Assembly (NCBI RefSeq): GCF_020921035.1
Contig: NC_063156.1
Coordinates: 28,630,283-28,694,282 of the forward strand
Source: Rhodamnia argentea
Lineage: Eukaryota; Streptophyta; Magnoliopsida; Myrtales; Myrtaceae
Length of the DNA stretch: 64,000 nucleotides
Reading direction: 5' to 3'
Notes under the pieces: generated by a model
Database searches by the model: none
The model's input: only the letters and a program-made list of their open reading frames with translations
Told to the model about the DNA's origin: nothing
Program-made: the position numbers and the translations under genes
Shown: in pieces, positions 5,447 to 42,304 of the stretch
How the letters are laid out: the number at the start of each line of letters is the position of its first letter
Position numbering within the stretch: position 1 is the stretch's first letter

Positions 5447-5885
5447 GGGAAAAAGACACCAAAAACCTTAAACTATGCTCGATGTGACATATTTACCCCA
5501 AATTTTTCTTTGTGACACAAAAAATCCTAAACTTGTATGCATGTAACACATTTACCCCAAGCTTGTGCTGGTGTGACACATTTACCCCAAACTTTTTATT
5601 GTGACATTAAAAACTCCAAACTTATAGGCATGTGACACATTTATCCCAAATTTTGAGGTAAATGTGTCACATTGATATAAGTTTAAAATTTTTGATGTCA
5701 CAAAAAAATATTTTGAGGTAAATATGTCACACGGGTATAAGTTTAGGGTTTTCGATGTCACAAGAAAAAGTTTAGGGTAAATGTGTCACGTTAGTAAAAG
5801 TTTTGGGTTTTTGGTGTCACAAAAAAAATTTTGAGGTAAATGTGTCACAGTTGACATAGTTCAGGGTTTTTGGTGGTTTTTTCCC
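5447..5885. mobile_element. Mutator-like foldback MITE with perfect 9-bp TSD
   Basis: A 439-bp element with long inverted halves. The left end (from 5447, gggaaaaagacaccaaaaac) matches the inverted right end (to 5885), and both arms contain repeats of the phrase gtgacacatttacccc. It is flanked on both sides by taacataaa (5438-5446 and 5886-5894), a perfect 9-bp target duplication, which is the size expected of Mutator-like transposons. It lies in the promoter region of the minus-strand gene starting at 5198. It encodes nothing. Confidence 0.85.
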
Positions 5886-36139: not shown

Positions 36140-37329
36140 AAAATGTCCAAAGTAATTTCCAACTAGATAGTGACAGTCCGCGAAAAACAGAGTGTACGTA
36201 AGAGAGACGTTTTTCAAATTGATACTGGAAAAATTCGATCTTCTCATGCCTCTGATAAAGTATGATCTGCGTTGATTAAAAGCGAAGTTATCTCCAAGGG
36301 AAACACATGCGGCATTTTGAAGCCAAACATACACAGCATAAGAAAACTTCATAGAAATAAAACATTTGTCGTTCAAGTAAATGAGATTCGCCTTTCTTCT
36401 TCAGCTGTCATATCAGTCAGCGATTATGTAGGAGGGATAGAACCATGATAATTAGAAGGAACCTAGCGAGTGTCCAAGGAATTTGATAGTGGAGATATGC
36501 CCACTTTAGCAAGACTCCTTGATAGAGCTCTTTCTGCAAATTCCTCCTCCAAGTTTGGTTTTTTCATCACTCAAACGCAGCCAGACTCCTCTTCTCCGGT
36601 CCATTCGCAACGAGGATTCCCACAAAACATCTGTGGCTAAACTGGGCTAAACTGAAAAACGACTACTCTGAAAACGAGCCAATGATGACCCTCCATGAAT
36701 TCGCCTTCATTTGCTTGATGATTTAGAGATCATGTTTTCTTTCTTGTCGGATAAGAAAGTCGGTTTTTGTATAATCTAAAATTTGTTTTTTTCAAGAAAG
36801 TTTTTGATAAATTCATTAGTTGTTCGCGGTTTAAAAATAGCGTTTCTATAATGAGGTGACATTAATCGACAACTTCATAGATTGATTGGAATGCGTCGGG
36901 ATAAGGTTGCGCATGATTAACGACAGGTATGTGGCGGATATTTTTTGCCGCTTTTGACGACGGTGAAAAATCTGCCACTGCGAAATCGTCGGAGCCGTCG
37001 AGATTGCGGACATTGCGGGACCGACTTTGATCGAAGGCGCTGGAGAGCTCCGGAAAGCACAGGTCTCGAGAAATCGGCAAAAAGCGACACGATAGAGGAA
37101 GACGAGGGATAGGGACGCCAGGCAACGTGGACTGGGTTGGGGGGAGAGATCCGGACAAGTGGACGGCGGATCTCCCGTTTCGCTCCTCTCCCCACTCCCT
37201 GCGCTATAAATACCGTCGCTGCCCTTTGCTGAGCTTCGTCGTCTCGTCTGGAAGATTCCATAGCTTTGATCGTAAGCGTGCTCAATCTCCGTTTGGTCGT
37301 TTGCTTTGCGAATCTGAGATCTGGAAAAC
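36140..37329. other. Promoter region of the metallothionein gene
   Basis: No gene is supported. The right part (about 36900-37330) is GC-richer and includes the TATA box at 37205. Confidence 0.45.
37205..37212 (+). promoter_or_regulatory. TATA box of the metallothionein gene
   Basis: TATAAATA lies 125 bp before the start codon, preceded by a C-rich stretch. This places the transcription start at about 37235-37245 and gives a leader of around 90 nt. Confidence 0.7.
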
Positions 37330-38102
37330 ATGTCGTCGTGCTGTGGAGGGTGAGTCTCTCTCTCTCTCTCTCTCGGGAACGGATGTAGATGATGCGTTGG
37401 TAGACTTCTGAAATGATGCAAACAGATCTCAAATTTGTGATGGTTGGGTTCTTCTTACACGCTGTCGACGGAAATTCTGGCGCTTTTAGATCGTAGGATT
37501 TCGCCGCTCGAATTCGATGCGAGGCGGATGAACAGAGCAGCTGCTTGCGTGATGATGATTGGGTGGTCCTAGTTAACTATTTATTAGCCATCTAATTAAG
37601 GGAATGGTGATGGTGAAGCAGGTGCAAGATGTATCCGGACATGAGCTACGCCGAGAACAGCAGCAGCGAGACCCTCGTCATGGGCGTCGCTGCGCCTGAG
37701 ACAACGTATGTGCTCCTGATCTTCCTTCTCTGTTCTTTTTCTTAGTTAATCCCATCTTAAGAGGGAGAGACATCAATTTGCGAACTTTTTCTTGCCCGAT
37801 GCAGTGAAAAGATGGAGGGAGGAGAGGTGGGCTTCGCGGGAGCGGAGAACGGGTGCAAGTGCGGGTCCAACTGCACCTGCGACCCCTGCACCTGCGACAC
37901 TGAGATAACGTATGTGCTCCAGATCTTCCTCCTCTGTTCTTTTTCTTAGTTAATCCCATCTTAAGAGGGAGAGACATCAATTTGTGAACTTTTTCTTGCC
38001 CGATGCAGTGAGAAGATGGAGGGAGGAGAGATGGGCGGCGCGGGAGAGGAGAACGGGTGCAAGTGCGACCCCTGCACCTGCGACCCCTGCACCTGCAAAT
38101 GA
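37330..38102 (+). CDS. MT2: Type-2-like metallothionein with duplicated C-terminal exon
   Basis: Four exons in phase: 37330-37349, 37622-37705, 37805-37909 and 38009-38102, giving 100 aa. Plant type-2 metallothioneins are about 80 aa, bind Cu and Zn through two cysteine-rich ends and take part in metal balance and redox defence. The spacer is typical ([20 protein letters not shown]). Two things are odd. The N-terminal domain is only MSSCCGGCK, lacking the usual run of C-x-C pairs, and no missing exon was seen in the 272-bp first intron. The C-terminal domain occurs twice: [20 protein letters not shown] with [10 protein letters not shown] in exon 3, and [20 protein letters not shown] with [10 protein letters not shown] in exon 4. 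The introns before them are both 99 bp and differ at only about three positions. There are 15 cysteines in all. A CT repeat follows exon 1. Confidence 0.88.
37355..37374 (+). repeat. (TC)10 microsatellite at start of metallothionein intron 1
   Basis: Ten tc units directly after the donor gtgag of intron 1. Confidence 0.9.
37706..38102 (+). repeat. Tandem duplication of 204-bp intron+exon unit
   Basis: Unit 1 is 37706-37909 (99-bp intron plus 105-nt exon); unit 2 starts at 37910 with a 99-bp intron and the 94-nt last exon. The introns are about 97 percent identical by eye, while the exons differ more, including loss of the codons for GSNCTC-like spacing in the second copy. The junction is at an exon end, so splicing stays intact. 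Confidence 0.9.
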
Positions 38103-39934
38103 AAGTCTCTGAGCCGCTGCCACCGCGGCCGCCGCCCACCTGGCCCTAATCCCGGAAGCTAGACAAGAAGAAAGAGGGAGAAATAAGAAGCAGCTTTGTG
38201 TTTGTTGTAGTTATCGTGTCGCGACCTCTGTAACTCAGCTGTAAAGGGGAGGTGTATCTTGTTTGTGTAAATGCATAACTAGTGCGTATCTGTCTGTTTT
38301 AGCCGACTTAGTTCCTCTATTCTCTGCTCTTCTGCTTCTCTTCCTCTATTCTCTTCTGCAAATATTTCTCTTGCATAAGATAAACGACCGAGGCAGAGTC
38401 GAAACGCTGTGTAGTGCGCGTCCTCTTTCTGTTCAAGCGTTGCTGCTACATTTTAGGGTGGTGACGGAGAGATTATCACTCCACATCCCCATTGAAGAAG
38501 AGTGTAGAAGGATAGAGTTCACGCCGGCAACGCATTAAACATTCGAAGGGCCTGCCTCTGTCGAGGGTTTATAGGAACTGCAGATGGCTCTGGAATTATG
38601 AAAGAAATAGGACTATAACCTTCAATAAGATGGTCCACACACACTGCTTTGCCATCACCGTCTTCCCATTCCTCGTTTATCTCCTCCGCCTGCAAATTCG
38701 ATGAAAGCTCAAACATCGCGCGCTCAGGTTGTCAGCCATGGTGATGAAGCTCGGAGCTTGTGCCCATGGTAGCACCGGATCATAGCCCGAGCCTCACGAC
38801 TCTGTGAAGATTGATTACGGAGAAAAAGAAAGATAGATTCGTATTCACACATATGAGAATTATATAGGAACAAGAATAATCTTGGATTCCCTTTCGAAAA
38901 AATGGGAATATGTTTCTTTGGAATAATAAGATTATTCCAATACTCGTGAAGAAAGAAACGTAATAAATGCAAAGAAGAGGCATCTTTCACCCACCCAGTA
39001 GCAAAGGGTTTGAACCAAGATTTCTAGATGGATGTGATAGGACATTATTACATCCAACACATAATCTAAATGTGAAAATTTGTCCTCTAAAAAAGGAAAT
39101 ATGGAATGATCGTTGGAGGTTGAAGCGCACGGCTATGGCTGCTCTAAAGCTGAGCTCGAAGCTCGTGGCCATCGTGCAAATCTGGATCAAGCGGCGAGGG
39201 AAGAGAAGGGGTCAACGGGCAGGGAAGGGGATGCTGATGCGGTGTCGGACAGTGATTTGTGGTGGAACTTGGAAGATGGAGGAGGTCCGGTGGGAGACGT
39301 TTTCTTGTGGAAGGGGCAAATTGGTTTTTCTAAAAGCAGGCACCGGCGTGGACTAAAGGGGGATGTCACAAAAAAATTCTAATTGGTAGGTGTAATAAAA
39401 AAATTTACATTGATATTTATGTAATAAATTTAATTCAAATTATTTTTTTGACTCAAAAATTGATAAATTTACTCGAAAGTAAATTTTTTTACCATAAAAA
39501 ATTTGGAACGGATATAATTATGACAAAAGAGTAAAAATTTCAAATTAGTAAATTACTACATATCATTCAATTCAACAATTTAATAGTAAAATTTAACAAA
39601 AAATTAATAATGTAAATTTATCATAAATATATTAATTTGGGGGTGAATTCGTCACAATGTATTAGTTTAAAATTTTTTTGTGGTCAAAACATTAATTTGG
39701 GGTAAATTTTTCATACGTGCATCAACTTACGATTTTTTGTGATAAAAAAGATAAATTTATCAAAAATGTATCATTTTGGATTTTTCGTGATATTAGTTCC
39801 AAACTAAAAGTATTATTCTCGTCCGATGAAAATTGAGGTATAAGGCACGTATGTGGAATTTTCTCTAAAAATTTAAAATTTAGTGAGGGTATAATATAAT
39901 AACATGAAAATTTTTAAATTAGTACGTTTATGTC
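38103..39934. other. Metallothionein 3' flank and AT-rich repeat debris
   Basis: The metallothionein 3' UTR probably ends by about 38300. From 38720 to 39080 the sequence looks like a worn repeat; 39370-39900 is rich in aaatttat and gtgataa phrases similar to the arms of the foldback at 5447. The 89-129-codon open frames at 38967-39382 are not recognised and look like part of a GC-rich repeat core. Confidence 0.35.
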
Positions 39935-42082: not shown

Positions 42083-42304
42083 GGTCACATGTGTAACGGT
42101 TTGAGTTTTTCGTAGTATTAACCTAATTTAACAGAAATTGACATTTTGTAAATTTGTTATAGGTATATTGGAGTTTGGGGGTTTTTGGTGGTCAAGGTCA
42201 CATGTGTATCGGTTTGAGTTTTTCGTGGTATTAATATAATTTAACGGAAATTGACATTGTGTAAATTTGTTACGGGTATATTGGAGTTTGGGGTTTTTGG
42301 TGGT
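42083..42304 (+). repeat. Two tandem copies of a 113-bp unit
   Basis: Copies start at 42083 and 42196, both with ggtcacatgtgta, followed by cggtttgagtttttcgt, tttaac-gaaattgacat and tggagtttgggg, and end with gtttttggtgg. They differ at only a few positions, so the duplication is fairly recent. The motif gtttttggtgg also occurs in the foldback at 5447. Confidence 0.8.

Follow-up and report, generated by a model that had tools for sequence, protein, structure and literature searches.

How does a plant metallothionein gene come to carry two consecutive exons for one cysteine-rich module, and what would such a gene make? The question is raised by an apparently type-2-derived metallothionein gene of Rhodamnia argentea, laid out in four exons at positions 37330–38102 on the plus strand of the 64,000-nt window analyzed here (the whole stretch of DNA, on contig C7). 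The exons are of 20, 84, 105 and 94 nt and the introns of 272, 99 and 99 bp, all three with GT–AG boundaries and in phase 2, and the 303-nt coding sequence is an open frame translating into a predicted protein of 100 amino acids with 15 cysteines.

Gene structure and family assignment

Exon 1 (37330–37349) encodes a short MSSCCGG start and is followed by intron 1 (37350–37621, 272 bp), whose three-frame translation contains no Cys-rich stretch, and a hidden N-terminal mini-exon was rejected on this account. A CT run of nine units (37356–37373), the length of which may vary between individuals, stands just behind the donor of this intron. The linker is encoded by exon 2 (37622–37705), which is 84% identical over 87 bp to that of the paralogue on contig C10. 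Upstream of the gene, a TATA-box-like element, GCGCTATAAAT (37201–37211, plus strand), ends 119 bp before the ATG, and the same 11-mer is present in the promoter of the C10 paralogue; the promoter likeness consists of two short matches, the 11-mer (a weak match, E 0.069) and one of 14 bp (E 0.27), and no match was listed in the promoter comparison with the C6 paralogue.

The initial annotation had taken the locus for a metallothionein gene in which an exon was recently duplicated in frame, and this reading is borne out. The Pfam profile of plant metallothioneins, PF01439, matches in two stretches with 67.5 bits against a cut-off of 23, while the type 4 (Ec) profile PF02068 scores 17 bits against a cut-off of 31.8; a sequence search of the PDB with the predicted protein gave no match at E up to 10. 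By the definition given in an excerpt of PMC11151532, a type 2 metallothionein has eight N-terminal and six C-terminal cysteines. The window gene departs from it at both ends, having three N-terminal cysteines (MSSCCGGCK), compared to eight in the C10 paralogue, and twelve C-terminal ones, arranged as two six-Cys clusters, each of which alone would fit. Still, homology and the positions of introns 1 and 2, which are the same as in the C10 and C6 genes, make it a type 2 derivative.

The family search of the genome yielded eight exon matches on contigs C10, C6, C7 and C2, five of them above the cut-off; below it are a single exon match on C6, another on C7, and the C2 match, which we take to resemble a type 3 metallothionein tail. 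Two further weak rows on C3 (E 2.4 and 3.1) were set aside as chance, and none of 14 control genomes searched for the family gave a match. Both the C10 paralogue (8+6 cysteines) and the C6 paralogue (6+6) have three exons, with a single last exon in C6; the N-terminal CC pair is missing from the C6 protein, whose last residues are NC, whereas C10 and the window gene have a final Lys. The C10 gene shares with the window gene the PF01439 family, a similar linker and C-cluster and the placement of the first two introns, and differs from it in having eight N-terminal cysteines rather than three, one C-cluster rather than two clusters of the C-type, and two introns rather than three.

By position, the relative is the C6 gene. 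The protein phosphatase (PP2C) gene of the window, at 22–24 kb, has its best genome-wide paralogue on C6 (59% and 58% in its two pieces, against 43–51% for the other matches), approximately 18 kb from the C6 metallothionein and in the same order and orientation as in the window. Comparison of 16789–38102 of the window with C6:30873000–30920000 revealed a colinear series of an ORF near 16.8 kb (E 3e-7), PP2C and metallothionein, which points to a syntenic relationship, probably stemming from an old block duplication. The C7/C6 block seems not to be fully kept, as no match to the DUF4378 gene of the window was obtained on C6 at E 1e-5. Synteny with C10 was considered and discarded: over 69.9 kb only a metallothionein exon and a repeat-like ORF (5585–5785) matched, and the latter also matches C6 several times. 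By sequence, on the other hand, the window metallothionein is closer to C10 than to the syntenic C6 gene, so that position and sequence disagree.

Over 40 codons compared with C10, dN is 0.135 and dS 0.321, a ratio below 1. The exons taken separately give an odd contrast, on few sites: exon 2 (37622–37705, 22 codons) differs from C10 exon 2 by ten nonsynonymous and no synonymous changes, and the C-cluster exon (18 codons) by two nonsynonymous and six synonymous ones.

The cysteine layout is thus 3+6+6 (15) in the window gene and 8+6 (14) in C10, that is, six cysteines gained by duplication and five fewer at the N-terminus. The initial statement on six cysteines added by the copy holds but needs this complement, as the total is 15 rather than 20. 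The stretch absent from exon 1, which nonetheless has one extra TCG codon, amounts to 48 nt, and in C10 it is flanked by two copies of a 10-bp direct repeat, GCTGCGGAGG. When the codons of C10 exon 1 were shuffled 2000 times, a repeat of at least 10 bp turned up in 252 of the shuffles; repeats of this kind are thus no rarity in a frame rich in cysteines, and a deletion via this pair is plausible, not proved. Since the N-cluster is fuller and the last exon single in both C10 and C6, the short N-cluster and the double last exon are best read as both derived in the window gene. The N-cluster loss could also mean a decaying function.

The 204-bp tandem duplication

The duplicated region is captured by Tandem Repeats Finder (TRF) as a 204-bp unit in 2.0 copies with 93% matches and a score of 698, the highest of the nine rows scoring at least 100 in the window. 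In the register of the alignment, the first copy is at 37696–37899 and the second at 37900–38103 (both on the plus strand), the ungapped match stopping at 38067; it comprises 168 nt with 95% identity, or nine differences counted on the alignment. A second two-copy tandem duplication, with a 113-bp unit and 91% matches, is found at 42083–42304.

Intron 2 (37706–37804) and intron 3 (37910–38008) were initially annotated as 99 bp each with about three differences, correct in all respects, the differences being three of 99 sites (intron positions 12, 22 and 76). Within its own genome (347 Mb, 74 contigs) the intron sequence is found in these two places only, with 100% and 97% identity, in a search that passes over simple repeats and very common words. 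Exon 3 (37805–37909) and exon 4 (38009–38102, ending with the stop codon) both carry the previously described EKMEGGE..NGCKC module, which indeed repeats in frame, with six cysteines per exon in translation. An antisense open frame of 153 amino acids runs on the minus strand over the duplicated exons and introns (37678–38139); it probably just reflects the GC-richness of the coding strand.

The unit takes in the end of exon 2, all of intron 2 and almost the whole of the old last exon. The repeat match starts within exon 2, crosses both introns and extends into exons 3 and 4; the final ten bases of exon 2 (CTGAGACAAC) and those of exon 3 (CTGAGATAAC) differ at one position. Exon 3 is therefore more than a copy of exon 4: it is a chimera, in which the body of a last exon without its stop is joined to a copied tail of exon 2 and followed by a copy of the intron 2 donor. 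With the exon 2 tail and the donor copied and the stop left out, a terminal exon would have become an internal one, in frame. As was noted initially, the 105-nt exon is of whole-codon length and its skipping preserves the frame: it is in phase 2 at both ends, and the form without it (exons 1-2-4) retains nine cysteines.

The Cys clusters of exons 3 and 4 differ in length, in addition to substitutions. Removing 18 nt encoding GSNCTC from the exon 3 cluster produces the exact start of the exon 4 cluster, and beyond this match the exon 4 cluster has one additional DPCTC unit. Exon 3 ends in ..CTC-D ahead of the copied exon 2 tail, so that a second DPCTC unit may contain the junction. A possible history is that the duplication cut the old last exon after the second D and that exon 4 lost GSNCTC later.

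Divergence of the copies and alternative histories

The exons had been described as differing from each other more than the introns do. The raw counts agree (5/59 over the first 59 aligned nt of exons 3 and 4, against 3/99 in the introns), but the difference is not significant (Fisher p = 0.15; over all alignable codons 5/75, p = 0.29). The further claim that this is the reverse of ordinary constraint finds no statistical support, as the exon changes, four nonsynonymous and one synonymous, correspond to dN 0.069 and dS 0.074. Positive selection on the two exons was considered and is unproved, with p = 0.15 for the above counts and p = 0.45 for nonsynonymous sites against intron and synonymous sites; drift alone would suffice to give the observed divergence. 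With dN about equal to dS, the open frame is no sign of selection in copies as young as these.

The explanation we favor, and consider probable, is that a type 2 metallothionein has been rebuilt by a loss in exon 1 and the 204-bp duplication, and that the gene is spliced in four exons and encodes a 100-aa, 3+6+6 protein binding d10 metals. A loss of 48 nt in exon 1, at the site of the 10-bp repeat of C10 and by slippage or unequal exchange, would have removed most of the N-cluster. The tandem duplication would have started some 10 nt before the end of exon 2, taken in intron 2 and ended shortly before the old stop codon, and the copy, devoid of the stop and supplied with a donor and the exon 2 tail, would have made the terminal exon an internal one, in phase 2 on either side. 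The gene would then be transcribed from the TATA promoter and, once its four exons are spliced, yield the predicted protein, in which d10 metals would be bound by two clusters of the C-terminal type instead of a pair of N- and C-clusters. The order and direction of these events are our inference, as are splicing, translation and metal binding; the layout of exons in DNA, the open frame, the GT–AG sites, the duplication itself and the shorter exon 1 are observed directly.

The strongest rival, which we hold to be unlikely, accepts the duplication in DNA and assumes that exon 3 is mostly skipped, or that the gene is little used, with a nine-cysteine protein or a fading gene as the outcome and no effect of the extra module. 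Such a reading accords with the frame-preserving removal of exon 3, with dN about equal to dS between the copies and with the N-cluster already lost. Speaking against the favored four-exon splicing, both donors, of introns 2 and 3, read AAC|GTATGT and thus lack the G that is usual as the last exon base. However, introns 2 and 3 share the donor and acceptor contexts, and therefore the sequence gives skipping no preference; moreover, the frame of exon 3 is open and all six of its cysteines are retained. A precedent for skipping is provided by the earthworm metallothionein clone Lr6F14, for which an excerpt of PMC12783039 reports duplications of the fourth exon that are absent from the final transcript; there too a late exon is duplicated, while the copies in the window are in frame and are known from DNA alone.

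The divergence of the introns (Jukes–Cantor 0.031, 95% interval of the proportion 0.6–8.6%) suggests an age of the duplication of some 2–10 My, if the rate is assumed to lie between 7e-9 and 1.5e-9 substitutions per site and year. Gene conversion would give the copies a younger look, and one could imagine an old duplication kept alike by conversion and retained because two modules are useful. The near-identical introns combined with Cys clusters of unequal length form a pattern that patchy conversion would leave; yet exon and intron divergence do not differ significantly, and a young duplication is the more economical account of the same pattern, which makes the conversion history improbable. 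Finally, the haplotype merging known to produce false tandem duplications in assemblies makes it conceivable that two alleles or two tandem genes were stitched together, but this is very improbable for a unit of just 204 bp within one gene, with its intron absent elsewhere in the assembly, and a plain false duplication seems unlikely because the copies differ at nine of 168 sites and end differently, one in a stop codon and the other in a splice donor. For the initial suggestion that copy number could tune metal capacity, the assembly displays one allele, with two copies.

Relation to other metallothioneins

Exon duplication in metallothioneins is already in print for animals, as far as the excerpts of the respective publications go. 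The oyster gene CgMT2 of Crassostrea gigas is described as a metallothionein gene marked by exon duplication and said to seem active (excerpt of PMC4101491); it is an animal gene with no known kinship to that of the window, for which the chimeric exon end and the reduced N-cluster are noted, the comparison with CgMT2 being one by description. For the three-domain metallothionein of the mollusc Biomphalaria glabrata, exon-specific duplication has been suggested for the first two domains, and in the same excerpt exon duplication alone does not account for the structure (PMC5578137); in the window gene the flanking introns still match at 97%. No plant metallothionein with a duplicated exon was found in titles and abstract openings of the open-licence literature, among the matches listed. 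In plants, the type 4 (Ec) proteins have three Cys-rich regions each (excerpt of PMC11151532), as does the window gene, a likeness of layout only. Oat type 2 genes have one intron, and some oat metallothioneins have atypical numbers and distributions of cysteines (both from an excerpt of PMC10603854).

In paper mulberry type 2 metallothioneins, mutations of N-cluster or of C-cluster cysteines had similar effects in yeast (excerpt of PMC11151532), so the exchange of one cluster for the other might be close to neutral. A bolder reading, which we rate as rather unlikely, is a swap of cluster types: an eight-cysteine N-cluster would have been mostly deleted and the number of thiols refilled with a second C-cluster by a donor-copying duplication, leaving a 3+6+6 layout unlike types 1–4 and maybe differing in the number of modules between individuals.

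The case is small and cleanly testable, and would not change the field. It presents a one-step route from a terminal to an internal coding exon, by copying of the preceding donor site, and, as a plant example young enough for the introns to be 97% identical, it would show how such an event happened. The gene would also permit a test of whether an extra cluster leads to more metal binding, to a changed metal preference, or to compensation for a lost cluster.
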